Positions 29,367 to 53,641 of a stretch of 64,000 nucleotides of DNA are shown here, piece after piece. This DNA comes from an uncultured Gammaproteobacteria bacterium (GTDB taxonomy: Bacteria > Pseudomonadota > Gammaproteobacteria > Eutrophobiales > Eutrophobiaceae), in NCBI GenBank assembly GCA_943788815.1, contig CALSRS010000001.1, positions 2,045,501-2,109,500 on the forward strand. Reading direction: 5' to 3'. Within the stretch, counting starts at the first letter, position 1. Every line of letters starts with the position of its first letter. The notes under the pieces are model-generated. The model ran no database searches, was not told where the DNA came from, and saw only the letters and a list, made by a program, of their open reading frames with translations. The position numbers were made by a program, and so were the translations under genes.

Positions 29367-31556
29367 TTACTTGTCTAACGGAGTCGAACGTAGCTGAAAG
29401 TGTGTGACGATGGGATGGGTTCCCTTGCCGTCTTCCAGAAACCATGGGTTGCGTCCACCGCTTGGAATCCATAGTCCTCGTCCTTTCCATCCTGCGTCTG
29501 GATCATCTATTCGTCCTTCAAATCCCTTTGCATAAAAACCCAGTGGATAGGGGGTGCGGATAGTAATGAACTCACCGTCTACCAGTGCATGTACGCCATC
29601 AAACAGATTGCCTATGGCCATAGGAATGTTCTCACCCAGTCCAAAGGTATTATGTTGATCTACCCAGGCATAATAGCTGGATTCAACCTTGATGTCGGGA
29701 TGGGTGTCAAAGGATGGTCCAGGTAGTTCATGAAAACTCCAGCCTTCCGGGCAATGGTCACCTGTCGCCTCAGGTCCGTTCAGTGGGCCCTGGCATTTGC
29801 GACGGTCAAATTCACCTAGATGACCACTCGCAAGAGCCACCCAGACCACACCATTACGGTCGATGTCTGCGCCACGGCTGCTAAATCCTGGCAGAGGTAC
29901 ATTATATTTTTCACCCAGACCTGTTGCCGGATCAAATCTCATGATGTAACCAGGATAACTATTATTGGAGCCCCAGATAGAGCCGTCCACAGGATTCGGC
30001 ATCACCGCGTAATAACCTGCCCTGAAACGGGTGTCCATATTGGGGTCGGCCGGCTCACCGGGTTCCACCCACTCGTCTCGTACACCATTACCGTTGGTGT
30101 CCAGTATTAGAGGTGACCAACCCTGCGCTGCCTCGGCATCACCAGTCTCGAGAAACAATTTGGAGTTTAACCAACCAATGACATCACCACCGCCGCTGGT
30201 CCAAAGGGTATTGTCCTCGTCCTCGGCGAACTGCAGGTGGTGCGTGCCGAAGCAGGTATCGATAAAGGTATATTCACCGGTATCCGGCTCATACATTGAA
30301 AGTTGTCTGCCTGAAGTGTTAGTAGGAAACAACTGTGCAGAAGGGTGGTCTGATCCCTCTTTGCAGAAGTCTGGGTTGTCCCTGCCACGTATGGCCGCTG
30401 TGTACCAGACCCTGCCATCCTGGTCCAGCATGGGATTATGTGCGTTAGCTTTGCTATCCCAAATGACTTCATCGCCCCAATAAAACGAAGGCGCGGTCAG
30501 CGGGTCATCGCCGGTTGTCGGCGTATCTGCATCACGCACAGGGGCATCGAAGGTGGTAGCGGTATTATTGACAGGATCCAGGATCGGAAACTGATCGGTA
30601 CTGAGTTCCGGCGCCCCATACAAGGGGCCATAGCCGTTGACCGTAGGGTTGCGGCGATCAGTACCGGACAGATCGTGGACATAATGATACGGCTCAGCCA
30701 TCCAGTCACGGATGGTGACGACAATATTACGCTCTTTGCCTGTGGGTCGCTGCGGGTCTGCACTGGGCAATTCCCCAGCCGCAATACGATCAGTCCAGTC
30801 TGCCAGATATTTAATTGGCAACATGTTTAATTGCCCTATGGGACGCATCATGCGGGAGCCTGCCTGCCCCGATGTGATACGTCTGATCCAGGCTGCTTCG
30901 GAATCCAGATCGAGGTCCAATAGGCCCTGAGGAAATGTCCTGGTTGCCTTGTTACCCAATTGATGACAACCAACACAATCGCTGTTTTTCATGGTTGCAA
31001 GGTATCTGTGAAGTCCACCCTGGATGGATGTCAGTTCAGTTTCTTCTGGAAGTTTCATCATGGAATACCAGTAGGCAGCAGGGTAAATTTCTGCAGCCGC
31101 TGTCCTGTCCGGCGCAACCATCACCGTGAAATCAACAATACTACCCGGACTGGCACTAAGCTTGGCAGAATCGACCAGGCCGTAACCTCTGACCCATAGG
31201 CGGTAATTTGCGTCGGGTAAGTCCGGTACCAGAAATCTGCCTTGATCATCGGTGGCGACAATCTTGTTAAAGCGGGTTTCAAAGTCATCTGTCTCGGCAA
31301 TGACCCAGACACCAGCTTCGGGACCATTACTGCTGGTAACAACACCAGCAATATCATTATTGTCGATATTGATAGTTGATGTCGTTGTTGCAGATTCAAT
31401 CTGATCCTGAACAGTTTCAGATGCAGGCACAGTATCTTGTTGGCTAGCCTGTTGCTGGTTACTACTATCACAGGAAATCACGAAAAAAGAGATAGCAATG
31501 ATGGTTAATAACTTACTCACAATCCTTTTAATAGTAGATATATTATTTATGTACAT
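29367..31556 (-). CDS. Lipoprotein: carboxypeptidase-regulatory-like + c-type haem + Vgb-like propeller (copy A)
   Basis: A 729-residue protein. Leader and lipobox FVISC give C29. A Ser/Gln/Thr-rich linker leads to a carboxypeptidase-regulatory-like beta-sandwich (68-150: IAGVVTSSNGPEAGVWVIAETDD, ATDDQGRFLVPDLPDANYRLWVRGYG). Then NSDCVGCHQLG holds a c-type haem motif (C194, C197, H198) and IRRITSGQAGSRM. The remaining ~400 residues are repeated blades (MLDQDGRVWYTAAIRGR, LQFAEDEDNTLWTSGGGD, IMRFDPATGLGEKYNVPLPG, ADIDRNGVVWVALASGHLGEFD), as in virginiamycin-B-lyase-like propellers. Two relatives lie at 36940 and 41506. It follows the amidohydrolase and TonB receptor on the same strand. Function unknown; a substrate-binding or lyase domain wired to a haem is suggested. 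Confidence 0.78.
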   Translation of the reverse strand: MYINNISTIKRIVSKLLTIIAISFFVISCDSSNQQQASQQDTVPASETVQDQIESATTTSTINIDNNDIAGVVTSSNGPEAGVWVIAETDDFETRFNKIVATDDQGRFLVPDLPDANYRLWVRGYGLVDSAKLSASPGSIVDFTVMVAPDRTAAAEIYPAAYWYSMMKLPEETELTSIQGGLHRYLATMKNSDCVGCHQLGNKATRTFPQGLLDLDLDSEAAWIRRITSGQAGSRMMRPIGQLNMLPIKYLADWTDRIAAGELPSADPQRPTGKERNIVVTIRDWMAEPYHYVHDLSGTDRRNPTVNGYGPLYGAPELSTDQFPILDPVNNTATTFDAPVRDADTPTTGDDPLTAPSFYWGDEVIWDSKANAHNPMLDQDGRVWYTAAIRGRDNPDFCKEGSDHPSAQLFPTNTSGRQLSMYEPDTGEYTFIDTCFGTHHLQFAEDEDNTLWTSGGGDVIGWLNSKLFLETGDAEAAQGWSPLILDTNGNGVRDEWVEPGEPADPNMDTRFRAGYYAVMPNPVDGSIWGSNNSYPGYIMRFDPATGLGEKYNVPLPGFSSRGADIDRNGVVWVALASGHLGEFDRRKCQGPLNGPEATGDHCPEGWSFHELPGPSFDTHPDIKVESSYYAWVDQHNTFGLGENIPMAIGNLFDGVHALVDGEFITIRTPYPLGFYAKGFEGRIDDPDAGWKGRGLWIPSGGRNPWFLEDGKGTHPIVTHFQLRSTPLDK

Positions 31557-31639: not shown

Positions 31640-32695
31640 CTAACTGATTTTTAACAGCCGTTTCAGATTGTCGCCTACAATAGCCCGTTTTTCAGGGTCA
31701 CTGAGTCGAGAAGCATCGAGAACCATATCCAGGGTATCGGGCCAGTTGTACGGGGTGTCTGTACCATAAAGAACCTGGCTCGCCCCCATCACTTCGACGA
31801 GTTGGTGAAGTTGTTCTTCTGTAAAGACCAGGGTATCTACAAATATCTGTGATCGTAGATATTCTATTGGACGTTTCTTGTTGGCACATTCGGCACCCAG
31901 GTCACAGGCAACGTCGGTACGCCCGTAATACGCTGGCAGGTAACCGCCGCCATGAGGGGTGACAATTTTCAGGCCTGGATTTCGATCGAAAGTCCCGTCG
32001 AAGATCATTCGTGACAGGAACATGGTCGTTTCCAGTGGATTACCGATAATGTTGGCGAGGTTTCCCCGCCCTTCAAAATGACTCTGATCAACAAAGAATC
32101 GTGAATTTTGTGGATGCATGAATACGGGAACATCCAGTTCATCGGCCTTGGCCCAGAAGGGATCAAATTTTTCACCCGATGGAACTGAACCATCCACGTG
32201 ACCGCCAATGGATGCGCCTCGATGCCCCAGCTGGGTGACCGCGTGTTCCAGCTCCTCAGCGGCAAGATCAGGATGTTGCAGGGAAACTGCCGCCAGGGGT
32301 ACAAATCGGTCTGGGTGCCTGGCAACCCAATCGGCCATACCTTCGTTCATGGTCCGGGTGATACGCTGTGAAAGCCTGCGGTCGGCGGGATACCACCAGT
32401 AATTACCCACATGAATGGCCGATATGTCTATACCCAGTTCATCCATTTTTTCCAACCTGTGTGGTCCCAGTACCCGGGCCTCACGTACGGTCATCTCCAG
32501 TGGAGTACCGCTAACCACCTGTTCCACTGCCTTGATCTCACAGTGTGCGTGCATGTCAATGATAGTCACTGGATTACCGCCTATGGATACTTGCCGACGT
32601 GCAGGCTGTGCCAGCGAAACGGGAATGTGCCCCATGACCAACCCACCAGCACTGGTAGAGACCATGGCTTGCAGAAATTTTCTACGGTTTTGCAT
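31640..32695 (-). CDS. Tat-exported amidohydrolase family 2 (ACMSD-like) protein
   Basis: A 351-residue metal-dependent hydrolase/decarboxylase-type TIM barrel. The twin-arginine leader is NRRKFLQAMVSTSAGGLVMG. Metal motifs: IIDMHAHCE (H49, H51), FMHPQN, IVTPHGGGYLPAY and LYGTDTPYN, all as in the PF04909 group, which includes ACMSD and resorcylate decarboxylases. Folding before export with its metal suits the Tat signal. AGGAG precedes the ATG. It lies between a TonB receptor (upstream) and haem/propeller protein A (downstream), all on the minus strand with short spacers, so probably one operon. Substrate is probably an aromatic or cyclic acid; that is inference. Confidence 0.87.
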   Translation of the reverse strand: MQNRRKFLQAMVSTSAGGLVMGHIPVSLAQPARRQVSIGGNPVTIIDMHAHCEIKAVEQVVSGTPLEMTVREARVLGPHRLEKMDELGIDISAIHVGNYWWYPADRRLSQRITRTMNEGMADWVARHPDRFVPLAAVSLQHPDLAAEELEHAVTQLGHRGASIGGHVDGSVPSGEKFDPFWAKADELDVPVFMHPQNSRFFVDQSHFEGRGNLANIIGNPLETTMFLSRMIFDGTFDRNPGLKIVTPHGGGYLPAYYGRTDVACDLGAECANKKRPIEYLRSQIFVDTLVFTEEQLHQLVEVMGASQVLYGTDTPYNWPDTLDMVLDASRLSDPEKRAIVGDNLKRLLKIS

Positions 32696-32806: not shown

Positions 32807-35488
32807 TTACCGGAAGTTATACTGGAATTGCAATCCGTAAGTGGTAAACCAGGAAGAGCCAGCGTCATCGAAGATAATACCATCGCCCCTGATATCAAAC
32901 TCTTGATTGTATTCTTCCTGAACACTGAAAAGGTTGCGGGCGTAGGCTGTCAATCTCCAGCGCTCATCCACATCGCCAATTCCACCTGAAATATTCATAT
33001 CCATATGCTTACCAACCCTCTGTGTCTGCTCGAAGGTCTCCACATCTGTGAGATAACCGTCTGAGGCGACAAAGTTCATGTTGCTGTGCCACATGTAATC
33101 GGAAAACATTGGTAATGGCCTGGTGTAATCCAGTTTCAGAGCAAACTTCCAGTCCGGGGTACGGGCTGCCTCTGAACCAGTACGGTCTATGGTGCCGGCG
33201 AAGGACTCGGGATCAAGCGGATCACCGTCTTCATCGAGCAGGCCGGCAGTCAATGCCGCCGATTCAGCGATAGATACACAAGGCCCATTATCGGCATCCT
33301 CGAACTCTGCTGGGGTACAACCTGCCCCCTCGTACCTGACCATTTTACCATCCATAATCGCGCCGACCAGTCTTCCGCGGAGGTTATCCGTGAGCTGCAT
33401 GTCGTATGAGAACTCCATGCCTCGTACACGCTGCTTACCTGCATTGAGGGCCTCGGCAACATTGGTGGCACCGGTATTATTGATATCGGTGACAATGGTT
33501 GCCAGCTGCAGGTCGGCGATCTCCATATTAAAGAAGGACAAGTCGTACCGGGCACGGTTATCCATCAGGCTACCTTTGATTCCGATCTCATAGGTCTCAC
33601 CCTGTTCAGGACCAAAACTGAATCTATCATTGATGTCTTCAGGCAGTGAGGCAACGCCCGTATCATAACCGCCTGCCTTGAAGGCCGTGGCATACTTGGC
33701 ATATAAGGACGTATTTTCACTTGGCCTATAGCGCAACGTGATCTGTGGGTCGACATCGTCCTGTGAAAGCGTGTCTGCAAGTGGACCGGGATTCCTGCGA
33801 ATCTGTCCATCAAGCCGCGTCATACCGATGGGTTCCACCGGGGTCAACCAGTTTGCGGGTAAATCTCGGGTTCGCCATTCCAGGGTGTAGCCAGGATCCC
33901 CCGCAGCGGTGACAACGGCCTCGCATTCTGGCAGGGCGGCACAACCGCCGACCGGTTCGTCCTCGAACACGTAGCGTGCGCCGAAGCCGTTCAGGTATAC
34001 CTCTTTGTCCACATCGGTGTAACGGGCGCCGACGTCGATGGAGGCTCGGTCATCCATAAAATTAAATGTAATGCTAGCAAAGACACTCTTCCATTCAGAT
34101 TTCTGCCAGCCGAAATTCTGGCGGCGTGGACGGCGAAGTTCCGAGTTTAAGTTATCGGTGAATAGGACCAGGTTGTCCTTTTGATAGTATCCCCCTGCCG
34201 TCCATTCAATTTGTCCACCGGCGGGTGAGGAAACTCTAATCTCCTGGGATATCTGATTCAGGTCCTCATCGCGGAAACGGACCTGACTAAAGAAGATTGA
34301 ATCGTTGCTGGTCTCAACACCACCACGATAATAATCCGAATACCCCGTGAGGGAGTTAAGGGTGATGCCGTTATCAAAGCTATACTGTAAATCCAGAACG
34401 CCCTGATAATATTCCTGCTGATCAAAAGTGCCCTGAAATTCATCAGGGCCGGAAGCCAGCGCCACGTCACGGACATTCAGAATTCCGGTACCACGGGTTT
34501 CCTCATCAGAGAGGTCAGTCGGTGGGATGGGCGCTGCAGCTGATGCTGATCTAAGACCCAGTCGGGAAAATGGTGAACTACTACCGCAATCCGGTGGTGT
34601 GTGTAGAAGGCTGTCGAAACTGGTCCTGCCAGGTACGATGGCATCTACCTCCAGAGGTATGCCACCGTCACGGTCAGGAAGATCTGCTATAGCCGCATTT
34701 TTAAATCTGCCAAAGCAGACCACTGTGGCCTCTGAACCGGCGTCGGTAGTAATGTATTCATGTTTGGCTGTGGCGGAAAAATTGTCCGTGGGATTCCATT
34801 CAAATGTAATCCTGCCGCCTTTATCTTGGCGATGTGGAAAATTATCACCAGTTACCACATCGATGAGGTAGCCATGAGTCTCATCGTATTTACCTGCCAC
34901 ACGGACACCCAGGGTATCTGTGATTGGACCACCAACACCACCCTCGATAGTACGCCGACCGAAATTTCCTGCATCCAGAAGGACGTCACCTTCCCACTGC
35001 TGAGTGGGTTTTCGGGTAACAAGACTGATAGCCCCGGCTACTGCATTTTGTCCGAAGTAAACAGGTTGTGGACCACGCAGGACCTCAATGCGTTCCAGGT
35101 CAAAAAAGGCACTCTTGACCATGGAGGTCCTGCCTATGACTACGCCGTCAATAAATGTTGGTGCAGCCTGTTCCAGGGCCAGACTAGAGCCTGCCGTACC
35201 CATACCGCGGATGGAAATGTTCTGGTCTTGCATGCGCACATCCAACTCAATGGAGGGTGAAAATTCTGCCAGGTCATCCATAGTCCGGAAACCCTGCTCG
35301 AGTAATTCCTGACCGCCGATCGCTTCCAGTGAAATAGGGACCTCTTGCAAGGATTGTTCACGCCGCTGGGCTGTGACAACAATTTCCTCCAGGGCCCCCT
35401 GGGCAAATACGTTAGGTGTTAATGCTATCGAAATGATGATAGATAGCGGTATGGTAATATTAAAGATTATTCTTTTGATGCTACTCAT
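32807..35488 (-). CDS. TonB-dependent receptor
   Basis: An 893-residue outer membrane receptor. The leader (1-29, ends NVFAQ) is followed by the TonB box EEIVVTAQRREQSLQEVPISLEAIGG, a plug (MDDLAEFSPSIELDVRMQDQNISIRGMGT, DLERIEVLRGPQPVYFGQNAVAGAISLVTRKP) and a large barrel that ends with FTTYGLQFQYNF-R. The long extracellular loops are rich in Asp/Pro/Cys (CAALPECEAVV, CTPAEFEDADNGPCVS). Most similar in style to the sphingomonad-type receptors for carbohydrates, steroids or aromatic compounds. It lies between cytochrome c (upstream) and amidohydrolase (downstream) on the same strand. GC is clearly higher than in the window average. Confidence 0.94.
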   Translation of the reverse strand: MSSIKRIIFNITIPLSIIISIALTPNVFAQGALEEIVVTAQRREQSLQEVPISLEAIGGQELLEQGFRTMDDLAEFSPSIELDVRMQDQNISIRGMGTAGSSLALEQAAPTFIDGVVIGRTSMVKSAFFDLERIEVLRGPQPVYFGQNAVAGAISLVTRKPTQQWEGDVLLDAGNFGRRTIEGGVGGPITDTLGVRVAGKYDETHGYLIDVVTGDNFPHRQDKGGRITFEWNPTDNFSATAKHEYITTDAGSEATVVCFGRFKNAAIADLPDRDGGIPLEVDAIVPGRTSFDSLLHTPPDCGSSSPFSRLGLRSASAAAPIPPTDLSDEETRGTGILNVRDVALASGPDEFQGTFDQQEYYQGVLDLQYSFDNGITLNSLTGYSDYYRGGVETSNDSIFFSQVRFRDEDLNQISQEIRVSSPAGGQIEWTAGGYYQKDNLVLFTDNLNSELRRPRRQNFGWQKSEWKSVFASITFNFMDDRASIDVGARYTDVDKEVYLNGFGARYVFEDEPVGGCAALPECEAVVTAAGDPGYTLEWRTRDLPANWLTPVEPIGMTRLDGQIRRNPGPLADTLSQDDVDPQITLRYRPSENTSLYAKYATAFKAGGYDTGVASLPEDINDRFSFGPEQGETYEIGIKGSLMDNRARYDLSFFNMEIADLQLATIVTDINNTGATNVAEALNAGKQRVRGMEFSYDMQLTDNLRGRLVGAIMDGKMVRYEGAGCTPAEFEDADNGPCVSIAESAALTAGLLDEDGDPLDPESFAGTIDRTGSEAARTPDWKFALKLDYTRPLPMFSDYMWHSNMNFVASDGYLTDVETFEQTQRVGKHMDMNISGGIGDVDERWRLTAYARNLFSVQEEYNQEFDIRGDGIIFDDAGSSWFTTYGLQFQYNFR

Positions 35489-35554: not shown

Positions 35555-36499
35555 TTATGGTTCCAGCGATGCAGCATAGGCAGCAATTGCCAACATGTCA
35601 TCTTCTGTTAAATTCTGAACGGCTGGCATCATTATCGCATTTGATGGTCCCTTACGGTCACCATGTTTAATAGCCCAAAGTTGGCGTACGATATAAGTGG
35701 GATGGCGACCTGCTATGGGTGGTACGTCTCCCATTCCTTGTAGTGTTTCACCATGGCATGCAGTACAGGCGATGGTTTTACCTCCACCTCCAGTCGTTGC
35801 AAGCTCTTTTCCTCTGGCAATGCTGCCTGTCGGAACCATGGCAACAAAACCCAGACGCGGGTCACGGTTGAGGGCGATCTCTTCATCTTCCGGAACGGAG
35901 ATTATGCGGTTGCCAATGGGCTCTGTGCCGCCTTCTGGATGCAGTAATCTTTTATTACCACCCCTAATGTAGGTTCTTGGTACGGTGTCGGTTTCTACCA
36001 CCCGAACCCATGGACGTGGTTTGACCGCAGCATAATATTCTGCGGCCTCAATGAGTTCTTCTTCGCTGATATTTTTCGCGATGTTGACCATGGTTCCGGA
36101 GCCACCACGGTTACCGTTTTTATAGTCTTCCATCTGGGCCAGAAAGTAATTTACTGGCAGACCGGCAACGTAGGCAGATTCATCATGACCTGTCCCGGTT
36201 GGAAGATGGCACAATCCACAGGCACGTACTTCAGTATCGCTGTTCCCATATTGCACAGTTTTTGGCATTGCCGGATACATTTCCGGGAACCAGTTTGGTA
36301 CATTATAACGGTCATTGATCTGTTTCCGGGTAACTGCAAGCTTACTGCCTGGTGCGGTATATACCGTGGCTGGATCAGCCTCGGGAAACTCGGCCATTTC
36401 ATCTGCAGCAGATCTTGGAAAAGCCCAGCCCGGTTTCTCCTGTGCTATAGATAGTGTCGGAAACAATACAAACAACAGATATAAAACAGTTTTTTTCAC
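35555..36499 (-). CDS. Dihaem c-type cytochrome
   Basis: A periplasmic cytochrome of about 314 residues. A GTG at 36499 with GGGGGA just upstream gives a clean leader (MKKTVLYLLFVLFPTLSIAQ); an ATG four codons earlier has no site. Numbered from that earlier ATG, haem motifs are CGLCH (98-102) and CTACH (249-253). C-terminal methionine ligand candidates are in AIMMPAVQNL, and each half ends in a typical LTEDDMLAIAAYAASL helix. The layout resembles cytochrome c4/c-551-type electron carriers. It is directly upstream of the TonB receptor gene. A decayed copy of its 3' end lies at 38651-38743. It could carry electrons from PQQ or molybdenum dehydrogenases (inference). Confidence 0.88.
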   Translation of the reverse strand: MKKTVLYLLFVLFPTLSIAQEKPGWAFPRSAADEMAEFPEADPATVYTAPGSKLAVTRKQINDRYNVPNWFPEMYPAMPKTVQYGNSDTEVRACGLCHLPTGTGHDESAYVAGLPVNYFLAQMEDYKNGNRGGSGTMVNIAKNISEEELIEAAEYYAAVKPRPWVRVVETDTVPRTYIRGGNKRLLHPEGGTEPIGNRIISVPEDEEIALNRDPRLGFVAMVPTGSIARGKELATTGGGGKTIACTACHGETLQGMGDVPPIAGRHPTYIVRQLWAIKHGDRKGPSNAIMMPAVQNLTEDDMLAIAAYAASLEP

Positions 36500-36939
36500 A
36501 TTTTCCCCCATCAGTTAAAAATATCGTCGAACTGTTGATTGGCGCTCAAGAGTTATATTTATTTATATATTAAATAAATTAGAACTTTACGCTACTTTTT
36601 GCACAATTTAAAGTAAGTTATATTGTTTATATATGCGAATTTGACGAGGCAACTATATTAATTTGTCACTTCAACTATCGTTGTAAGAAGGCAACGGTGA
36701 CAGGGGGAAATTCCTTTCAGGCAGATATTGTTGAAAGGGCGTTACCAGGTAACAAGGAGCGCTATTGAAATTTTAGGATGCTCTGTATAAGTCTATCCAG
36801 GACTAATCAGCGCTCGCGAAATAGAATATGATAATTATTTCAGTTATAAATCAATTAGATGTGTATTTTTGTCGCAACCCCGGCTTAAACCTGGGGCAGG
36901 CTCAGTGTGAAAAGATCCTCTGATTAAATTAGAGTACCT
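36500..36939. other. 440-base intergenic region between cytochrome and propeller genes
   Basis: AT-rich spacer with no convincing gene. It contains a short inverted repeat GTTACC-A-GGTAAC at 36741-36753 and should hold the promoter for the cytochrome-receptor-amidohydrolase operon (36499 downward). Confidence 0.5.
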
Positions 36940-38574
36940 TCAATCTGAATCCCCCGGGTCGATCATCCCAATCTGTCCACCCCAATGACCGCCATACCAG
37001 ACCCTGCCTTTGTCATCGACACCCATAAACCGCACACTTGTATTACGCTTGGCAACAGGGTACTCAATAAATTCACCAGTTTTGGGATCAAACCGCGTGA
37101 TATTGTTTCCGGCTGTGTCCGCATACCAGATATGATTACGCTTTTTGTCCACGGTGATGCCATAGGGTGTTGCGTATCGGGTAGGGGGTTGGTAGAGAGT
37201 AATTTCCTCGGTCTGGGGATTGAGCATTCCCAGTTTATTCCCGTAGTAGTCGGCATACCAAATATTATCGTCTGCATCCACACCGATACCTCGTGAACTA
37301 AACATCTCAGGAGTGTGATAACTCTTTGTTTCCCCCGTCACCGGGTCAACCCTGAATATGACTCCCAGGTTGAATTGTGTCACCCAGGGATAGCCTTTTG
37401 AGTCCACAGCGATGGCATAGCTGTTTATCTGATTTGCACCTCGGCCATAGATATCGGCATAGGAGCCTTTGGGAACTGAGGGCGGTCTGGGATTTGGGTA
37501 GGCCCTAAATTCTTTGGTCCGGGTATTGAGGCTCCAGGTATCATTTCTGGCAACGATCCACAGCTGGTCATCGTTAGTAGGGTCCTTGACCACTACCCTT
37601 GCGCCCTGTGGCTTCTCTGGCCAGGAATAGATCTCCAGGTCACCATCGAAAGTTGAGGCGATTAACTTTTCATCGACTCCACCTTCGGTCGCCATTGCTA
37701 CTATAAAGCGACCGTCTTTCATTACCGTACCCGTATGGGCATGGGCCTCGGGAACTGGAATGGGGTATTCATTAAAGTTTTCTGTATTTGGATCAAAATT
37801 TGCGATCTTGTTGGAGAGAATATCGTACTCTGAAAACCAGACTATGCCGCTGTTTTCATCCACAGTGACACTGTGTGCCATCGCTTCATCGGTAGGGATT
37901 TTCCACTCCTTGATGGTGGCTTTTAGTGCCTTATTACTCATACGTGAATACCTGACCTTTGAGTAGTCCAGCTCAGTTTTCATAGGGCCAAACAGGCCCT
38001 CATGACCAAACATGGTCATGACTCCGGGTAGCATCGTATTAACAAGTTCTTCATCAAACTGGGTGGCGCCTGAACGACGCAATTCCATGACAGGTAAAAA
38101 AGCTTGCCATCCTGCCTCAGGCATTCCTGCACGTTGCAATGCTGTTTCAAGTCCATGACAATTGGAACAGCGGTCATAGGCTTGTATGGCATCTCTGGTC
38201 TCGGGGATTAAGAATCGCATTTCAGCGCTGGTCAGTCGACTGACATCATTCATGGCTGTTAAGGTGAAATTCAATTCTGTGTTATCGGTGGTGTCTATGG
38301 TGTGCTCGTCTATTGCAAACCTGTCAGCATCAACAAGTACTTTGTAATTTGCATTTTCCAGTCCATGTATCCTGTAGAGGCCGTTATCATCCGTAAAATT
38401 TGCCACAGTTTTAGTTCCCAGTTGAGCTTTTACCATGGCGCCTCGTACAGCTACCCCTGCATTGTCTGTAACCTTACCGTGCAGTGATGCGTTGCCAGCT
38501 GAATGCACCGGATTACTTGAAAAGATAAGTAAAGAAATCCAGACAGATTGGAAAAAAAAATGCAGTGTTTTCAT
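36940..38574 (-). CDS. Carboxypeptidase-regulatory-like + c-type haem + Vgb-like propeller (copy B)
   Basis: A 544-residue secreted protein (leader to about VHSAG, 26). Residues 27-107 are a regulatory-like sandwich (NASLHGKVTDNAGVAVRGAMVKAQLG, FTDDNGLYRIHGLENANYKVLV). CSNCHG (C136, C139, H140) is one c-type haem site. The C-terminal ~320 residues contain six to seven Vgb-like repeats such as SVTVDENSGIVWFSEYDILSNKIANFDPNTENFNEYPIP, GITVDKKRNHIWYADTAGNNITRFDPKTGEFIEYPV and GVDDKGRVWYGGHWGGQIGMIDP. GGGGAG precedes the ATG. It has no lipobox. Same architecture as the genes at 29367 and 41506. Function unknown. Confidence 0.82.
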   Translation of the reverse strand: MKTLHFFFQSVWISLLIFSSNPVHSAGNASLHGKVTDNAGVAVRGAMVKAQLGTKTVANFTDDNGLYRIHGLENANYKVLVDADRFAIDEHTIDTTDNTELNFTLTAMNDVSRLTSAEMRFLIPETRDAIQAYDRCSNCHGLETALQRAGMPEAGWQAFLPVMELRRSGATQFDEELVNTMLPGVMTMFGHEGLFGPMKTELDYSKVRYSRMSNKALKATIKEWKIPTDEAMAHSVTVDENSGIVWFSEYDILSNKIANFDPNTENFNEYPIPVPEAHAHTGTVMKDGRFIVAMATEGGVDEKLIASTFDGDLEIYSWPEKPQGARVVVKDPTNDDQLWIVARNDTWSLNTRTKEFRAYPNPRPPSVPKGSYADIYGRGANQINSYAIAVDSKGYPWVTQFNLGVIFRVDPVTGETKSYHTPEMFSSRGIGVDADDNIWYADYYGNKLGMLNPQTEEITLYQPPTRYATPYGITVDKKRNHIWYADTAGNNITRFDPKTGEFIEYPVAKRNTSVRFMGVDDKGRVWYGGHWGGQIGMIDPGDSD

Positions 38575-40685: not shown

Positions 40686-40787
40686 AATGTCCCTGTTCAT
40701 TCGTTAATTTAATGTCAGCGTAACATTAAAGAGATTGTCTGATAAGATTTGATATATCAATATAAAAAGCTCAAGGAATCTGTGGCC

Positions 40788-41441
40788 ATGAAAAGACCTA
40801 TATCTTTACTGAATCATCAGTTTCTAGAATATTTCGTCATCATAATGTCGGTAGGTTTAACACCAATAGCACAGGGCGCTGAGGAAGAAGAATTGATTGA
40901 GTATCGGCGTGTCCCTACACAATTTATTGCCGCCCTGGGAGAGTCCGATGCCAGGAGCGGGAACAATGCACAGTTATGGGGCTTGTGGGAGATAGATCCG
41001 GGACCAAGAGGGGTACGTCTGGGTCAGTATGATCGCCTGGTGGCAACAGGTGGGGTAGCACCTGCGAAATGGAAGTTTGATAATAATAACTGGTGGCTTG
41101 AAGAGCATGGGCTAATTATGGAATCACCAACTTTTCCGCTTCAAGCTGGTAAATATATTGTGACAGGGGATCGTGAAGTGTCTACGGTTTTGACGGTAGA
41201 GCCCGTTGATGAAAATGGGAACCAGCATTGGGCGTTAGCAGATGGTGCATCGCTGTATGATGTTACACACCTTGCTTGTCGTTCTGCGCGTTATACACCT
41301 GTTGGGGAAAATAATTCGTGTACACCTGCATTGGCCAGTCAAAGTGACTATCCAGTGACGCCCGGTGCGGCCATGCCTCAAGTTTCGGGTTGTAACAAAC
41401 AGGACTATGCGGTACTTTTTGTCATTGGCAAAGCAATATAA
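40788..41441 (+). CDS. Secreted protein of unknown function
   Basis: A 217-residue exported protein starting MKRPISLLNHQFLEYF with leader ending near QGAEEEE. AAGGAA is 8 bases upstream of the ATG at 40788. Mature sequence includes FIAALGESDARSGNNAQLWGLWEIDPGPRGVRLGQYDRLVATGGVAPAKW and repeated beta-rich stretches (FPLQAGKYIVTGDREVSTVLTVE), with four cysteines (HLACRSARY, NSCTPA, SGCNKQ and others). I do not recognise a family. It directly precedes the largest haem/propeller gene and may be cotranscribed. Confidence 0.68.
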   Translation: MKRPISLLNHQFLEYFVIIMSVGLTPIAQGAEEEELIEYRRVPTQFIAALGESDARSGNNAQLWGLWEIDPGPRGVRLGQYDRLVATGGVAPAKWKFDNNNWWLEEHGLIMESPTFPLQAGKYIVTGDREVSTVLTVEPVDENGNQHWALADGASLYDVTHLACRSARYTPVGENNSCTPALASQSDYPVTPGAAMPQVSGCNKQDYAVLFVIGKAI

Positions 41442-41505: not shown

Positions 41506-43677
41506 ATGCAAAAGATCAGGCTTTTAAAATCTACCTATATTTTATTTCTGATTATCGTCAGTGTGTCCTGTACGGTTGAGCAGGAAACGACACAGACGGC
41601 AATACAGGAACAATCCCGGCCTGCACCAGAACAAGCAGAAAGTCCTGACGTAACTTTACAGGATGCCTCCGACGCGGGACGCGGCGAATATATTGACGAT
41701 CTGCAACGTTCAACAAAGGTGTTCACATTCCAGCAAGCTGCTACTGAGGGCCCTGACCGCGGGGCAGAGATCTATTATTACCGGTGTTGGACTTGCCACA
41801 ATACCTACACGGCGGAGGCCGAGCCGGATACATCCGGTCCACCACTTGAGGGACTTTTCGACCGTCCAGTCATGTTGTCCGGAGAGCAGATGACCGATGA
41901 AAACGTGGCTGACAAGATCCGACACGGCGGTCCCGGTATGCCGGCATTTCGCTATTCCATGAGCGATGACGATATCGCCGACATGTTGAGTTACCTGAGA
42001 AGCGGCGACTGCTGTGTCGCCTCAGGTGAGATTAACCTGCCTGCCAATCCCTGGTATACCGCGTCTGATGACGACACCATGGCATTCGAATATAGGGACA
42101 ACCTCTATGGCGGTCCAACCGGGAGCGTACGCTCAACAGCTGATGTGCCTTTGGAAGGCATCATGGTGCAGTTGATCGCCAGTGAAAATAATATCCGTAC
42201 CACGGTATACAGTAATGAGGCCGGTGAATATGAATTTCCTTCATTGCCTACCGGGGAATATACCCTGCGCATCGCCAAACCATTGCGGTGGAAACCTTAC
42301 CGCCGCGACAGTGTGCGTATCGATGGTGCACCAGTGCTGGAAGACATCGTCCTGGAAAGGGTAACGGATCATGAACTGTTACCGCCAACCATGGATATCA
42401 TCGGCCAGATGAGTGGTGCAGAATGGTTGTATAACCTTCCAGGCACCAACGAAGAGAAGCGAATATTTGTTACTAACTGTAACTGGTGTCATTCCTACCA
42501 GCAGGTCTTCCGTTCCCGCTATGATGAGCATGGCTGGAGCAAAGTCGTGGAAAGGATGAGCCATTACCAGGGCTCACCACTTATCTACCGAAATTCCAGT
42601 GGGCGTATGGAGCCGGAAGACGAGGAATTGCTTGTGAAGTGGCTCGCCCGGGTCAGGGGACCCGACTCACCCAATCCGAAATTCAAGGAGATGCCCTATC
42701 CCACCGGTCCTGCAACCGAGGTCGTGGTCAGGGAGTATGAGCTGCCTCGACTTTATCTGGCGACCCATGACGTGGCCCAGGATCACAATGATTACCTCTG
42801 GTATTCTCCACACCGCGGCCCAAGGCTTGGTAAGGTAGATCCCGCCACTGGGGTCACGGAAGAGATCGTTATCCCTGTACCTGAGGGTTGTCTCCCGGGC
42901 ACCCACTGGATCATTTATACCCGGAACAATTATCTGTGGTCATCACAGAACTGGGCACATACGTTGACGCGTATCGATCCAGATACCCATGAGTTGCACC
43001 AGATTAAACCGCCTCCCCGGTACCTGCCTGATGGGGTGACTCCGCGGCCCTGTAATATGTCCATGGGGGGTAACTGGGCCGTGGGCCCGGACGGTTACAT
43101 CTGGAAAATACGTACCAATATGGTTACTAAAACGGATCCTGAGACTGGAGAGTATGTGGAAACCTGGCCAGTCGAGAATGTCAGTAGTACCTATGGGACT
43201 GATGTGACGGACGATAATAAGTTTGTCGGTGGCGGTTCCTGGGGTAATGATTGGATGATCATGCTGGACGTTGAAAAAGGTGAAGTCATAGAACGCTTAT
43301 CCAGTTATCCCAATCAGGGACCAGGTCGTAGCGCGTTTGATAATAATAATAATGCACTGTGGTCAGGAGGTAAGGGTGGGGCGCTGGTGCGCCTGGAGTC
43401 AGACACCCGGCGGTTGAAGGAGTTTGTCGCGCCGCTGTTGTACTACGGTAGTTTCTACGAGGCCAACGTGGACAAGAACGGCGAAGTGTGGTCAGGGGCG
43501 GTGCAGACCGGCCGCTATATGCGTCTGGATCCCGAGACCGAACGTTGGATTACTTATGTATTACCAGAGCCATTTTCTCATAATCGTAAAAGCTGGATAG
43601 ATGATTCCACCGATCCAGTATCACTTTGGTATGTCGATCACGACAGCTTCCTTGTTCATATTCAGCCACGACAATAA
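41506..43677 (+). CDS. Lipoprotein: cytochrome c + carboxypeptidase-regulatory-like + second haem motif + Vgb-like propeller (copy C)
   Basis: A 723-residue lipoprotein, lipobox VSVSC at about 18-22, strong GGAGGGGAG ribosome site. A cytochrome c domain (70-170) has C94-WTC-H98 and a GGPGMPAFRYSMSDDDIADMLSYLRS methionine-ligand segment. Next is a regulatory-like sandwich (201-285, VPLEGIMVQLIASENNIRTTVYSNEAGEYEFPSLPTGEYTL). A second haem motif is C325-NWC-H329. Residues 400-723 contain propeller blades such as DHNDYLWYSPHRGPRLGKVDPATGVTEEIVIPVPEG and NVDKNGEVWSGAVQTGRYMRLDPETERW. It is the most complete of three relatives. Followed 33 bases later by an amidohydrolase. Confidence 0.83.
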   Translation: MQKIRLLKSTYILFLIIVSVSCTVEQETTQTAIQEQSRPAPEQAESPDVTLQDASDAGRGEYIDDLQRSTKVFTFQQAATEGPDRGAEIYYYRCWTCHNTYTAEAEPDTSGPPLEGLFDRPVMLSGEQMTDENVADKIRHGGPGMPAFRYSMSDDDIADMLSYLRSGDCCVASGEINLPANPWYTASDDDTMAFEYRDNLYGGPTGSVRSTADVPLEGIMVQLIASENNIRTTVYSNEAGEYEFPSLPTGEYTLRIAKPLRWKPYRRDSVRIDGAPVLEDIVLERVTDHELLPPTMDIIGQMSGAEWLYNLPGTNEEKRIFVTNCNWCHSYQQVFRSRYDEHGWSKVVERMSHYQGSPLIYRNSSGRMEPEDEELLVKWLARVRGPDSPNPKFKEMPYPTGPATEVVVREYELPRLYLATHDVAQDHNDYLWYSPHRGPRLGKVDPATGVTEEIVIPVPEGCLPGTHWIIYTRNNYLWSSQNWAHTLTRIDPDTHELHQIKPPPRYLPDGVTPRPCNMSMGGNWAVGPDGYIWKIRTNMVTKTDPETGEYVETWPVENVSSTYGTDVTDDNKFVGGGSWGNDWMIMLDVEKGEVIERLSSYPNQGPGRSAFDNNNNALWSGGKGGALVRLESDTRRLKEFVAPLLYYGSFYEANVDKNGEVWSGAVQTGRYMRLDPETERWITYVLPEPFSHNRKSWIDDSTDPVSLWYVDHDSFLVHIQPRQ

Positions 43678-43710: not shown

Positions 43711-45525
43711 ATGAAAAAAGCGGTACACGATGTTGTAACATCCATACTTTATATTCTCATCACCATATGTCTTTTGCCTGCAGGTGTTATGGCACAGTCA
43801 AGAAATTCAGATGTATTGGTGATAGATGGCGGAACATTAATCGATGGGAACGGTGGTACACCTGTTGAAAATTCCAGAATAATTATTCGTGGGAATCGGA
43901 TTGACAGTGTCACCACGCAAGGTCGGGGACGTATACCCAGGGGTGCCACAGTAATCAACGCTGAAGGAAAATTTATCGTCCCAGGATTAATGGACGCCCA
44001 TACTCACTATGCAGAATGGATGCCGGAGTTAATGTTGAATAACGGAATTACCTCAGTTTTTTCAATAGGAAGTGGCGGTGAATGGTCCCTCGCACATCGA
44101 GATGCTATTAATGCTGGCAAGATCAAGGGTCCCCGGACCTTTGTTGCGGTGGGTAGCCTGGCTGGGGGTCGTATATCAGCGTTGTCTGCACGTAGCGGCG
44201 AATCCGGTGGCCTGAGTGGGCGCCAGGTGGCAATGGATGCAGAATCGGCCATTGCCATCACCCGGCGTTTTGTCGAAGCGGGTGCGGACATGATCAAGGT
44301 CCACCGCGGGCCGACTATTGAGGCCTATCGAGCAGCGATTGAAGAGGCGCATAAGGCCGGTCTTCCGGTGGTAGCGCAGCCCATTGGACCCACGGTATAT
44401 GCCAGGGATGCTATATTGGCTGGTGCGGACATTCTTGAGCATGCTGCAGGTGTCTCCGTTTCCATTGCGGCCAATCCTGAGAGGTGGGAAGGCTTTGGTA
44501 ACATCGAGCGACATTCATTAAGTCCCTTGCCTTTTGCTGATATGGATGAGGCCAAGGCAAGAGATTTAATCAAACTGATGGTGGATCGTAATGTTTATTT
44601 AGAACCCGACTTTATCGCCATGGGTCGCGGTTACCATAAGGACAAGGACAAGTTTGAATTAATGGATTATCGTCTGTTAAACCGTCATGAACTCTCCTAT
44701 GTACCGGAAGCAAACCGCCAAAGGATGTTGAATACCTATAATCACCTTAAGCGTTATGGACCTGAGGAATACGAAGAACGTAAAAAGGGTTACCATAATA
44801 TGCTGCGGTTCATGAAGATGTTTGTAGATGCAGGCGGCAAGGTGATGACCGGGACCGACACGGCCGGCTGGGCGGTACCGGGACAGGGACTGCTTCATGA
44901 AATGCAGATCCTGCAGTACGAGGTCGGGATGACACCAATGCAGGTCATCATGTCGGCAACTCAAATTATTGCTGAGGGTTTCAAAGTTCTGGATGATCTG
45001 GGGACTATTGAGGAAGGAAAATTGGCTGACATCGTAGTCGTCAATGATGATCCTCTGGAAGACATGAGCAACATCTATGATATCGAATACGTAATCAAGG
45101 ACGGTAAGTCCATAGACCTTACGTATACGGCAGGGTATGAAAGCCCCTTCCCCCGTGGTGCGGTAGAAGGTTCTGCATGGGTGCGCGCCCTGGGCAACCA
45201 GAGTTTCCAGGGGACGGAATTTGGTCAACCGCATCCAGGAATATCGGCTATTTCGCCCAATATAAAAACACAAGGTGACGAATCGTTCATCATGACCATT
45301 CGGGGTGTACACTTCACCACAGAAACCGTCGCTTATTTCAATGGGAAACGTCTAAAAACCCAGGTGGAAAGTGAGACGGAGCTTAAAGTGAATATCGATG
45401 CATCTCTAGTTTCAGAGGTTGGAACATATCCTATCGTTGTTAGAAATCCTGAACCCATGCAACGGCCGGAATGGGGTGAGGGTACATCTAACAAGGCACA
45501 CTTGCTTGTGAATTACCGGTATTAA
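43711..45525 (+). CDS. Amidohydrolase with C-terminal IPT/TIG-like domain
   Basis: A 604-residue exported protein (leader ending VMAQS, ~29). The amidohydrolase barrel spans about 33-475: NSDVLVIDGGTLIDGNGG, VPGLMDAHTHYAEW (H97, H99), AGADMIKVHRG (a lysine position), PTVYARDAILAGADILEHAAG (His), KVMTGTDTAGWAVPG (Asp) and EEGKLADIVVVNDDPLED. Residues ~505-600 add a beta-sandwich ISAISPNIKTQGDESFIMTIRGVHFTTETVAYFNGKRLKT...VGTYPIVVRNPEP that reads like an IPT/TIG domain. Such fusions are unusual. AGAGG precedes the ATG. In an operon-like row with copy C. Confidence 0.84.
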   Translation: MKKAVHDVVTSILYILITICLLPAGVMAQSRNSDVLVIDGGTLIDGNGGTPVENSRIIIRGNRIDSVTTQGRGRIPRGATVINAEGKFIVPGLMDAHTHYAEWMPELMLNNGITSVFSIGSGGEWSLAHRDAINAGKIKGPRTFVAVGSLAGGRISALSARSGESGGLSGRQVAMDAESAIAITRRFVEAGADMIKVHRGPTIEAYRAAIEEAHKAGLPVVAQPIGPTVYARDAILAGADILEHAAGVSVSIAANPERWEGFGNIERHSLSPLPFADMDEAKARDLIKLMVDRNVYLEPDFIAMGRGYHKDKDKFELMDYRLLNRHELSYVPEANRQRMLNTYNHLKRYGPEEYEERKKGYHNMLRFMKMFVDAGGKVMTGTDTAGWAVPGQGLLHEMQILQYEVGMTPMQVIMSATQIIAEGFKVLDDLGTIEEGKLADIVVVNDDPLEDMSNIYDIEYVIKDGKSIDLTYTAGYESPFPRGAVEGSAWVRALGNQSFQGTEFGQPHPGISAISPNIKTQGDESFIMTIRGVHFTTETVAYFNGKRLKTQVESETELKVNIDASLVSEVGTYPIVVRNPEPMQRPEWGEGTSNKAHLLVNYRY

Positions 45526-45586: not shown

Positions 45587-46717
45587 ATGAATATCGATGA
45601 GCTTCAGACCCCCTGTCTGCTGTTAGACAGGGGGCGAATGCTCTGCAACATCGCCCGTCTAAAGAACCATCTGGATCCTCTCAATAGCCAGTTACGCCCT
45701 CATGTAAAAACGGCCAAGTGTCCGGAGATCGTCAGGTTGATGCTTGGATCATCTTCAGATCCGATTACAGTCTCCACATTGAAAGAAGCGGAGCAATTTG
45801 CCGCTGCTGGTTACCGGGACATCCTCTATGCTGTGGGTATCGTCCCGTCAAAACTACCGCGGGCCATGTCATTACGTCGTAATGGTATTGACCTGTCCAT
45901 CATTCTGGACACCATTGAGGCTGCAAAATCAGTTGTGTCCGCATGTGACAAGTACAAGGCGTCAATACCGGTTTTAATAGAGATTGATTCTGATGGGCAC
46001 CGTGCAGGTATCCGTTGTGATGACCCAATGTTAATTGAGGTAGCAAGGGTGCTACATGATGGCGGTGCGGAGCTACGCGGTGTCATGACCCATGCCGGGA
46101 GTGCCTATAAGCATTCAGGTGCAAAGGCACTTAGTAACATGGCTGAGCAGGAACGTGCCGCGGCAGTCACTGCTGCTGAGCAGTTGCGTGATAAAGGGTT
46201 TCCCTGTCCTGTTGTTAGCGTAGGTTCCACACCAACAGCAACATTTGTTGAAACTCTTTCAGGTGTCACCGAGGTCAGGGCAGGAGTATTTGTCTTTCAG
46301 GACCTGGTGATGGCGGGTCTGGGTGTGTGTGATATTGGTGATATTGCGATTAGTGTGCTGACAACTATCATAGGTCGCCAGAAGGAAAAGGGTTGGATAC
46401 TGGTGGATGCGGGCTGGATGGCTATGTCTCGAGACCGGGGTACGGCAAGCCAGTCGGTAGATCAGGGGTATGGATTGGTTTGTGATCAAGCGGGCAAACC
46501 TTATCCGGACCTGATTATGGTAGATGCAAACCAGGAACACGGGATACTGGCATTACGGCAAGGTAGTCAATCAACGTTACCAGACTTGGCTATTGGTTCC
46601 ATGGTGAGAATTTTACCTAATCATGCCTGTTCCACAGCCTCTCAACACAATTGTTATAATGTGCTGGATGTTGATAATAAAGCAATGGACCAATGGCAAC
46701 GATTTTCTGGTTGGTAG
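45587..46717 (+). CDS. DSD1-family PLP-dependent enzyme (D-threonine aldolase / D-serine dehydratase-like)
   Basis: A 376-residue cytosolic fold-type III PLP enzyme. ELQTPCLLLD and RPHVKTAKC (K41 the PLP lysine) open the barrel; VLIEIDSDGHRAGIRC, THAGSAYKHSG, VSVGSTPTATFVE and GVFVFQDL follow. The end RILPNHACSTASQHNCYNVLD carries the conserved His and Cys zinc site of this family. Enzymes of the group cleave or dehydrate D-3-hydroxy amino acids. It has no leader, unlike its neighbours, so it probably processes an imported product. The ribosome site is weak. Confidence 0.9.
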   Translation: MNIDELQTPCLLLDRGRMLCNIARLKNHLDPLNSQLRPHVKTAKCPEIVRLMLGSSSDPITVSTLKEAEQFAAAGYRDILYAVGIVPSKLPRAMSLRRNGIDLSIILDTIEAAKSVVSACDKYKASIPVLIEIDSDGHRAGIRCDDPMLIEVARVLHDGGAELRGVMTHAGSAYKHSGAKALSNMAEQERAAAVTAAEQLRDKGFPCPVVSVGSTPTATFVETLSGVTEVRAGVFVFQDLVMAGLGVCDIGDIAISVLTTIIGRQKEKGWILVDAGWMAMSRDRGTASQSVDQGYGLVCDQAGKPYPDLIMVDANQEHGILALRQGSQSTLPDLAIGSMVRILPNHACSTASQHNCYNVLDVDNKAMDQWQRFSGW

Positions 46718-46770: not shown

Positions 46771-48054
46771 ATGTTGCTAATAACATTTCTAAATAAATTT
46801 TCTATTGCACGTGTAATTTTAACTATTCTTGTTTCAGTATGTTTATTTGACGCTTTGTATATACATTCTTCAGAGGCACAGGTATCTGATGAGGTAACCG
46901 TTTTTGAAGGCGCCCGTCTGATCACAGGAAAAAATGAACCACCAATACTAGGTAGTGTATTTATTGTTGATGGCGATCGTATTACTGCTATTGGAACCAG
47001 AGGTACGCTAACAGTACCGGATGATGCACTTCGTGTTGACCTGTCCGGAAAAACTGTCATGCCAGCAATAATCGATACGCATAAACATCCGTCAGACCAA
47101 TTGGATACCTTAACCGCGCAACTCAAAGAGCTTGCATCTTATGGTGTGGGTACTGTTCTCAGTTTAGGTCTTGATAACACTGATGCTGTCTATCACTTGC
47201 GTCATGAACTATTACCAAATGCATCTAGGTATATGACTGCAGGGCGTGGCATTAGTACACCTGAGCCAGGTCGTTCTGAATCTGCATATGGAACAGCGCC
47301 TGCGGCATACTGGATTAATAGCGTTGAAGAAGGACGTATGGCGGTAAGAGAGCAGGCTGATAAAGGCGTAGATTTTATCAAGATCTGGGTAGATGACCGC
47401 GGTGGCAGATATGAAAAGATGTCACCCCAGATGTATACCGCAATTATCGATGAAGCACATAAGCATGGTCTTCGCGCGGCTGCACATATACATCATCTTG
47501 AAGATGCAAAGGGTCTGTTACATGCAGGTCTGGATGTGTTTGCCCATGGTGTACGCGATCAGGATGTGGATGATGAATTGATTCAATTATTCCAACAACA
47601 CCCTGAAGTATATTTAGTGCCAAACCTGCCAGACGAAGGTGTGGCCATAGATATAAGGGGCTTACACGGCCTTATCCCCAATGAGGTGATAGCAACTGTA
47701 GAGTCGGAGTACGCAGGCACAACAGCTGAAAAGGCGTTTTATCAAATACAGGCGCGTAACCTCAAGGCCTTATATGATGCCGGTGTGAAAATAGCCTTTG
47801 GAACAGATGGTAGAGAAATGTGGGAGGTCTTCATAGAATTGGAAAATATGGTGGATGCGGGTATGACGCCAGCTGATGTCATCATTTCTGCAACTGGAAT
47901 ATCGGCAGACCTTCTTAATCTCGAAGATACTGGCACCATCGAAGCGGGGAAGGTCGCAGACTTTATTGTACTCAATGGTAATCCATTGGAAGACATAAAA
48001 AATATCAGACAGATTGATTCAGTTTATCTGCGCGGAACAAAACTCAAAAAATAA
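46771..48054 (+). CDS. Secreted amidohydrolase
   Basis: A 427-residue exported metal-dependent hydrolase (leader ending SSEAQ, ~36). Metal motifs: IIDTHKHPSD (H104, H106), GVDFIKIWVDDRGG (K site), HGLRAAAHIHHLEDAKG (His), DVFAHGV (His), IAFGTDGREMWE (Asp), and EAGKVADFIVLNGNPLED. Its layout is the imidazolonepropionase/prolidase-like group as in the 43711 gene. AAGGAG is just before the ATG. It is followed 19 bases later by DUF1330, so cotranscription is expected. Confidence 0.87.
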   Translation: MLLITFLNKFSIARVILTILVSVCLFDALYIHSSEAQVSDEVTVFEGARLITGKNEPPILGSVFIVDGDRITAIGTRGTLTVPDDALRVDLSGKTVMPAIIDTHKHPSDQLDTLTAQLKELASYGVGTVLSLGLDNTDAVYHLRHELLPNASRYMTAGRGISTPEPGRSESAYGTAPAAYWINSVEEGRMAVREQADKGVDFIKIWVDDRGGRYEKMSPQMYTAIIDEAHKHGLRAAAHIHHLEDAKGLLHAGLDVFAHGVRDQDVDDELIQLFQQHPEVYLVPNLPDEGVAIDIRGLHGLIPNEVIATVESEYAGTTAEKAFYQIQARNLKALYDAGVKIAFGTDGREMWEVFIELENMVDAGMTPADVIISATGISADLLNLEDTGTIEAGKVADFIVLNGNPLEDIKNIRQIDSVYLRGTKLKK

Positions 48055-53170: not shown

Positions 53171-53641
53171 ATGACAATAAAACTCAAAATTAATGGCAAT
53201 GAACATCAGGTCGATATTGAACCGGAAACCCCGCTGTTATGGGTACTTCGCGACAGTGTTGGTCTGACCGGGACAAAGTTTGGATGTGGTATCGCTGAAT
53301 GTGGTGCCTGTACGGTGCATGTCGATGGCAGGTCGGTTAAATCTTGTTCCACACCCGTTTCAAGCGCGGTGGGAAAAGAGATTACCACCATAGAAGGCCT
53401 ATCAGATGATAATACTCATCCAGTTCAACAAGCCTGGATAGAAAATGGCGTACCACAATGTGGTTACTGCCAGTCTGGTCAGATCATGGCAGCAACGGCC
53501 TTGTTGTCACGTTCGTCTAATCCCACTAACAGTGAGATCGATGCGGCCATGTCGGGCAACCTTTGCCGCTGCGGTACTTATCTGAAAATCAGAAAAGCCA
53601 TTAAACGTGCTGCAGATTTAATGCAGGAGACCAAAGCCTGA
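53171..53641 (+). CDS. (2Fe-2S) subunit of a molybdenum hydroxylase, IorA-like
   Basis: A 156-residue protein with two iron-sulfur domains: [23 protein letters not shown] (plant-type 2Fe-2S) and [17 protein letters not shown] with [15 protein letters not shown] (second cluster). This is the small electron-transfer subunit of the xanthine-dehydrogenase superfamily, as in isoquinoline 1-oxidoreductase. It lacks a leader and is presumably carried out by the Tat leader of the large subunit. The stop overlaps the next start by one base. Confidence 0.94.

Follow-up and report, generated by a model that had tools for sequence, protein, structure and literature searches.

A bacterial protein family joining a haem c domain to a Vgb-like propeller: candidate cytochrome c-linked oxidoreductases

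Introduction

In pyrroloquinoline quinone (PQQ)-containing quinohaemoprotein dehydrogenases and in cytochrome cd1, a catalytic propeller is linked to a cytochrome c domain, and quinohemoprotein amine dehydrogenase (QHNDH) brings together haem c, beta domains and a propeller of seven blades. A comparable fusion is encoded at positions 41506 to 43677 (plus strand) of a 64,000-nucleotide stretch of contig CALSRS010000001.1 from an uncultured gammaproteobacterium, hereafter called the window. Among solved structures, the propeller of this protein is most similar to that of virginiamycin B lyase (Vgb), which binds a substrate analogue and Mg in its blades 6 and 7 according to PMC8916777. Here we describe this protein, 41506, and two relatives from the same window, 36940 and 29367 (each named after the first coordinate of its gene). 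Their architecture defines a widespread, apparently unstudied bacterial protein family, and the reading that we favour, tentatively, is that its members are periplasmic cytochrome c-linked oxidoreductases.

Results

Architecture of the three window proteins

The 723-residue 41506 protein carries two c-type haem motifs and consists of a cytochrome c domain, a sandwich, a haem domain and a Vgb-like propeller. The N-terminal monohaem cytochrome c domain (residues 83-166, positions 41752 to 42003), whose CxxCH lies at 41785-41799 (residue 94), is matched by the Pfam model Cytochrome_CBB3 over residues 83-164 (E 6.1e-12). It is followed by a carboxypeptidase-regulatory-like beta-sandwich (about residues 204-285, 42115 to 42360; CarboxypepD_reg, PF13620, residues 205-259, E 2.6e-10) and by the middle haem c domain (residues 296-400, 42391 to 42705), in which the second CxxCH (residue 325, 42478-42492) sits between sandwich and propeller and is followed by Met351 (codon 42556-42558). 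The Vgb-like propeller (residues 401-723, 42706 to 43674) has seven blades by motif count and a profile match to 2qc5; Vgb_lyase covers residues 407-512 at E 1.4e-6, below its curated cut-off in Pfam. Sequence alignment assigns H421, H467, Y563, R608, Y651 and R694 to the propeller pocket.

The two other members lie on the minus strand. The 544-residue 36940 protein (36940 to 38574) has a sandwich (CarboxypepD_reg, E 1.1e-10), one CxxCH (38155-38169, residue 136) and a propeller (Vgb_lyase, E 4.7e-29). The 729-residue 29367 protein (29367 to 31556) also has a single CxxCH (30963-30977, residue 194); here CarboxypepD_reg matches below its cut-off (E 7e-5) and Pfam lists no Vgb match at E <= 1. 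It is nonetheless a diverged family member, because the family profile A5 (70 rows) and a four-row profile of 29367 sequences (A9) can be aligned over 449 columns that span the sandwich, the haem domain and the propeller (probability 99.8%, E 1.7e-30). The three proteins are divergent members of one family, as the first-pass annotation of this DNA had proposed, and Pfam, motif search and profiles bear out its description of each as a sandwich, one or two CxxCH sites and a Vgb-like propeller.

A5 is a hand-picked alignment of 55 rows from scan loci, 5 from the genome that contains the window (its own genome, below) and 10 genome-search matches chosen for having sandwich and haem; it omits part of the 80-protein clustering family and, on purpose, stand-alone propellers. 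The scan of named genomes yielded 69 loci (numbered with L) from 154 pattern matches, with search patterns that flank the haem motif and do not include CxxCH. In the rows listed the middle domain has one CxxCH, and the second motif of 41506 and of its orthologues L064 and L065 lies in the separate N-terminal domain. Judged by eye, all three window proteins carry export signals, and lipobox-like cysteines are found in several members (29367, L024, L028 and L029); the three are probably exported to the periplasm, and some members are probably lipid-anchored.

Conservation of the haem motif

C325, C328, H329 and M351 are invariant in 70/70 A5 rows. By a less selected count, CxxCH is present in 73 of the 74 family proteins called in 64 scan loci; the exception (L110:3-1106) runs off the start of its contig, and in L123:12357-13964, which is counted among the 73, the motif is at residue 464, outside the haem domain. 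Family open reading frames (ORFs) of the remaining five scan loci likewise have CxxCH. The first-pass annotation had made its proposal depend on conservation of CxxCH in homologues, which both counts support, and the redox role that it put forward fits the invariant CxxCH and Met.

Met351 is probably the axial (sixth) haem ligand, and the motif suggests a covalently attached family haem with His/Met six-coordination; the own genome encodes CcmF (E 2.8e-120). A Met that never varies after CxxCH is in keeping with an electron-transfer haem of the His/Met type, and the invariance of this likely sixth ligand makes the haem an improbable site of catalysis. In the propeller, Y563 and Y651 are present in 69/69 rows that reach them, the missing row being L065, which is cut by the contig end. 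Judged from the alignment, haem motif and propeller pocket are equally constrained.

A Vgb-like propeller with a different pocket

The closest solved relative of the A5 profile is Vgb (2qc5, E 1.7e-46). At E <= 1e-5, PF24684 and PF13620 are each found in 68 of the 70 members and the NCBIfam model VgbA in 61. NCBIfam scores were 66.9 and 62.6 bits for 36940 and, for VgbA, 14.9 bits (E 0.011) for 41506, against a curated cut-off of 600. TIGR03606, considered as a sign of a PQQ dehydrogenase, is matched by 1/70 members, and one A5 member matches the NCBIfam model of a lactonase-type nitrous-oxide reductase.

The most conserved pocket positions are H421 (65/70), Y563 (69/70), R608 (67/70), Y651 (69/70) and R694 (65/70, with Lys in 4), the one gap at each of them being L065; R607 (66/70, Gly in 41506) and R673 (67/70) are also strong. 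We take the catalytic set of Vgb to be His228, His270 and Glu284. On that assumption, H421, Y563, R607, Y651 and R694 are placed before the blade Trp, at the site of the two Vgb histidines, and the family residues that correspond to the catalytic blade starts of Vgb are, in the two final blades, Tyr651 and Arg694. Glu at Trp+4 is absent from both His blades of 41506 (the first two blades, with H421 and H467) in the sequence alignment. As aligned, the family has retained a polar pocket where Vgb has its own, built from other residues. A lyase acting on cyclic peptides or lactones, one of the activities suggested earlier, is not supported, since the presumed Vgb catalytic residues have no conserved counterpart; streptogramin-type lyase activity is unlikely. 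As to the question raised in the first-pass annotation, whether the blades belong to a known non-redox family, the propeller is a member of the Vgb superfamily, which speaks against the pocket being strictly bound to the haem.

A second cytochrome c, fused or adjacent

The N-terminal monohaem cytochrome c of 41506 is also present in its orthologues in L064 (79% identity) and L065 (60%, cut by the contig end). L026, from the own genome, and the Acidobacteriota loci L067, L078, L099 and L131 have instead a separate gene for a small cytochrome c immediately upstream. Within a ten-sequence set, phmmer found the fused and separate cytochromes homologous for L067, L026, L078 and L099 (E 3.6e-10 to 1.6e-5) and did not report the small cytochrome of L131. 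A CxxCH protein is encoded at most 900 bases upstream in 5/5 unfused clade members versus 2/62 others (L075 and L082, with other kinds of cytochrome); this count covers 69 anchors, two of them with an incomplete upstream stretch, and one further motif lay in a frame of 15 residues.

In a tree calculated without the N-terminal domain, the seven fused or adjacent members form one side of a branch with support 90, and the remaining six stay together (support 88) in a second tree from which nine long or divergent rows were removed; neither value is decisive, which weighs against the reading favoured here, as the program left both unstarred and gave a long-branch warning. The fused or adjacent trait requires 1 change on the tree, compared with a mean of 6.8 after shuffling, and 0/500 shuffles were as low. 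L065 (153 residues) was excluded from the trees. The N-terminal cytochrome of 41506 thus looks like a fused form of the small upstream cytochrome c. As it is fused in one lineage and encoded by a neighbouring gene in another, this cytochrome would work with the haem-propeller protein, and the pattern of fusion and adjacency is good evidence for such a partnership.

Gene neighbourhood

On the plus strand, 41506 is preceded at 64 bases by a gene for a secreted-looking protein with no Pfam or NCBIfam match at E <= 1 (40749 to 41441). Downstream lie a probable periplasmic amidohydrolase with a C-terminal CoaZ repeat domain (43711 to 45525; PF01979; in NCBIfam, NF058597 over cut-off and XaaProDiPepCaul below it), a pyridoxal phosphate enzyme with alanine-racemase N-terminal and D-serine dehydratase-like domains (45587 to 46717; PF01168 and PF14031; BhcC-like in NCBIfam, below cut-off) and the second amidohydrolase of the run (46771 to 48054; PF01979). 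These five genes are co-directional with gaps of 33 to 64 bases and likely form an operon. A second likely operon, on the minus strand and with gaps of 66 to 111 bases, comprises a cytochrome c with two CxxCH (35555 to 36511; PdsA-like below cut-off, by Pfam and NCBIfam), a TonB-dependent receptor (32807 to 35488; Pfam), an Amidohydro_2 enzyme with a Tat-like leader recognised by eye (31640 to 32695; PF04909, E 8.7e-34) and 29367; 36940 lies 428 bases upstream of it on the same strand. The earlier remark that the family members have a catabolic enzyme or a receptor beside them agrees with the presence of 31640, 32807, the dihaem cytochrome 35555 and 43711.

The pairing of 41506 with its amidohydrolase is kept in 3/3 loci with an orthologue, since a 43711 orthologue adjoins that of 41506 downstream in L064 (66%) and upstream in L065 (55%). 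Two more family members occur within 9 kb in L064, a locus that also encodes a 51% homologue of the short-chain dehydrogenase/reductase 40020. In L087 a family member is preceded, at about 1.6 kb, by a homologue of 46771 (42%), and a 35555 homologue is found near the family member L026. For a broader view, neighbourhood genes were called mechanically, a procedure that yields false ORFs in GC-rich genomes. The near set held the 148 nearest of 276 ORFs, of which 130 were scanned (18 omitted, 5 of these long), and included 5 Cytochrome_CBB3 proteins, which partly repeat the evidence from the fused or adjacent clade, together with 4 PQQ propellers and 7 TctC proteins. The far set held 148 ORFs sampled from 248, of which 123 were scanned, and gave 1 PQQ propeller and 7 TctC proteins; Cytochrome_CBB3 was not among its families with two or more members.

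Several other features of these neighbourhoods were recorded. Amidohydrolase-type genes number at least five in the window segment 43711-61372, two recognised by Pfam (43711 and 46771) and three by eye (49217, 50626 and 59531), which suggests an amide or peptide catabolic island. Near several amidohydrolases, at 53171-55836, are a 2Fe-2S subunit (by eye) and a molybdopterin dehydrogenase with a Tat-like leader, presumably isoquinoline-oxidoreductase-like. Four paralogous receptors of about 43-50% identity occur in the same genome, at 15133-17265 and 57356-59455 of the window, L025:5476-7617 and L026:9511-11766; the L025 and L026 copies adjoin haem-propeller genes, and the L026 copy is of TonB type by Pfam. 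In L123 and L122 (Acidobacteriota), haem-propeller genes lie near proteins of about 800 residues with two CxxCH, each paired with a Tat-type protein (by eye).

Extent of the family

Beyond the window, the own genome (3.23 Mb) encodes five further haem-propeller paralogues: contig 2 has two in tandem and a shorter one without a sandwich, contig 1 has L026, and the fifth is a 65% paralogue of 29367. It also contains L027 (G000:C1, about 370890-371444), a weaker Vgb-like ORF in a 337-residue open frame (E 7.9e-8). With 41506 as query against 58 relatives, 5 match at E <= 1e-10, namely the own genome and four of its genus. A five-row profile (A2) matches 17/274 genomes of the class at E <= 1e-15, the own genome included, and some of these matches are haem-free stand-alone propellers. 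Eight such proteins (L143-L150) have a conserved Tyr/Arg pocket and varied neighbours. Close relatives of 29367 were found in 2/185 class genomes and 3/398 phylum genomes, with the own genome counted in both, and CxxCH is kept in all four full-length 29367-type sequences read. Plasmid homologues came from 3 records (22-25% identity), and the one record inspected carries no annotation.

The scan records are labelled Acidobacteriota, Alpha-, Beta-, Gamma- and Deltaproteobacteria, Rokubacteria, Gemmatimonadetes, Chloroflexi and Acidimicrobiia, labels that are those given on metagenome bins. The three proteins are thus no system peculiar to this window and belong to a large family with 69 scan loci. 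No listed NCBIfam model names the family among those matched by the 70 members scanned, and no description of a sandwich, haem and Vgb-like propeller in one protein was found in the open-access literature, among the matches listed, a scope that mostly excludes subscription papers.

Discussion

Architecture, conservation of the haem motif and its Met, fusion or adjacency of a second cytochrome, and amidohydrolase pairing are all seen directly in the sequences. An invariant CxxCH and Met, a dedicated second cytochrome, a weak likeness to QHNDH and the presence of ccmF indicate electron transfer, and it is the combination of these signs with a conserved propeller pocket that makes us favour an oxidoreductase. 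In the mechanism that we propose, a substrate, probably anionic, would bind the central pocket of the propeller, lined by His, Tyr and Arg, and would be oxidised there or at a domain interface. Electrons would then reach the middle-domain haem, six-coordinate with His and Met as ligands, and go on to a monohaem cytochrome c, which is fused N-terminally in 41506 and encoded just upstream in the rest of the clade; for 36940, the dihaem cytochrome 35555 perhaps takes its place. Amidohydrolase 43711, encoded alongside, may then cleave the product of 41506. Both catalysis and the direction of electron flow are predictions, and that 41506 acts on something like an amide or an amino acid is guessed from the genes around it.

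For the haem-domain profile, the top solved chains are QHNDH alpha subunits (1jmx, 4.6e-6; 1jju, 1.6e-5), and PF09098, the QHNDH haem domain, is found in 4/44 haem domains at E <= 0.01 (best 2.2e-5), that of 41506 not being listed. This suggests a likeness, not proof of descent. A number of results weigh against the oxidoreductase reading. Each QHNDH score adds up two weak stretches (E 0.11 to 1.4), an ordinary cytochrome c-553 is the solved chain that best matches the haem domain over a single stretch (E 0.0078), and on the same 44 domains the generic models Cytochrome_CBB3 and Cytochrom_C match 6 and 4. The propeller showed no known site for a redox cofactor. In the own genome neither the QHNDH radical-SAM maturase (TIGR03906; two weak radical-SAM matches) nor PqqE scored over cut-off, and PQQ models are absent from the 10 Pfam families matched by the 70 members at E <= 1e-5. 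A QHNDH-type quinone, considered as cofactor, was set aside in view of the maturase result; PQQ is unlikely given that of PqqE, with import still conceivable. An operon conserved across relatives was rejected, as neighbours are mixed over 60 loci and TctC is equally frequent near and far. Conservation does not single out the haem either, Y563 and Y651 being as invariant as CxxCH. The chief point of this kind, judging from their sequences, is the set of haem-free relatives, which speak against pocket chemistry that requires haem: Y563, R607, R608, Y651 and R694 are present in 8/8 of these stand-alone proteins, and no called ORF of at least 80 residues has CxxCH in the 12-16 kb around each. The pocket can thus exist without haem.

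These haem-free relatives, together with the placing of the propeller in the Vgb superfamily by PF24684, also lend weight to the possibility that the propeller is a redox-neutral enzyme (lyase, lactonase or isomerase) or a binder, with the haem as a passenger that links redox partners or stabilises the protein. We consider this unlikely, though worth serious attention: neither CxxCH nor Met varies, which puts them level with the best pocket residues, and a passenger would leave the fused or adjacent second cytochrome c of a whole clade unexplained. Slightly less probable in our estimate is a pure electron-transfer or docking protein, in which propeller and sandwich hold a periplasmic complex, for example with amidohydrolases or with PQQ or molybdenum dehydrogenases, and the haem relays electrons. 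Cytochromes and PQQ-type proteins among the neighbours, including the dihaem cytochrome 35555 beside 36940, are in keeping with such a role, as is the seven-bladed beta subunit of hydrazine synthase, described in PMC12758564 as having no known active site. On the other side, the conserved polar pocket (H421, Y563, R608, Y651 and R694) resembles a ligand site, and no single partner enzyme is conserved across loci.

Catalysis at the haem itself, of peroxidase or oxygenase type, might be read into the two haem motifs of 41506; it is very unlikely, as the Met that follows CxxCH in every A5 row suggests a six-coordinate electron-transfer haem. That the proteins are genuine streptogramin B (virginiamycin B) lyases to which a haem has been added is hardly credible: Vgb is the nearest solved propeller and most A5 members match VgbA, but the presumed His/His/Glu set is replaced by Tyr651 and Arg694, the Trp+4 Glu is missing from the His blades, and 41506 scores 14.9 bits where the VgbA cut-off is 600. 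The oxidoreductase reading has a bolder form, which we regard as doubtful, in which the propeller would hold a so far unrecognised site for redox chemistry, be it a metal, a quinone derived from the protein or an arrangement of the His/Tyr/Arg ring; the family would then be a new class of single-chain haemoprotein dehydrogenases derived from a lyase fold, feeding respiration from periplasmic amino-acid- or amide-like substrates across several phyla.

Most aligned members score best against models of antibiotic-cleaving lyases or generic regulatory domains, and a widespread family of haem proteins may for this reason hide under a misleading resistance-gene name. If its members are dehydrogenases, they would represent an unrecognised route by which soil and aquatic bacteria take electrons from extracytoplasmic organic matter. 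With four invariant haem-domain residues (two Cys, His and Met) and a compact conserved pocket, the family is directly testable.

Hydrazine synthase subunits likewise bring propellers together with c-type haems, but bis-histidine haems are among them, and the accessible part of PMC12758564 mentions no Vgb-type propeller.

Oxidoreductases that combine haem and propeller are already known. QHNDH (1jmx and 1jju) shares with the family a similar CxxCH...R...W...M layout, through weak summed matches, and differs in that the middle domain here has one haem, not two, and that the propeller is Vgb-like and part of the same chain. PQQ quinohaemoprotein dehydrogenases differ in cofactor signals, the family being without a PQQ match in Pfam and the own genome without PqqE over cut-off. 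The propeller is like that of Vgb (2qc5 and 2z2n) in profile, blade repeat and length, whereas the proteins described here are longer, exported (by eye) and haem-bearing, and lack the residues that we take to be catalytic in Vgb. CylK, a calcium-binding domain joined to a Vgb-like propeller, makes carbon-carbon bonds, and no haem is mentioned for it in the accessible part of PMC8916777; as in the present family, an extra domain is fused and the Vgb site is replaced, and CylK already provides a case of a Vgb-like propeller with other chemistry.

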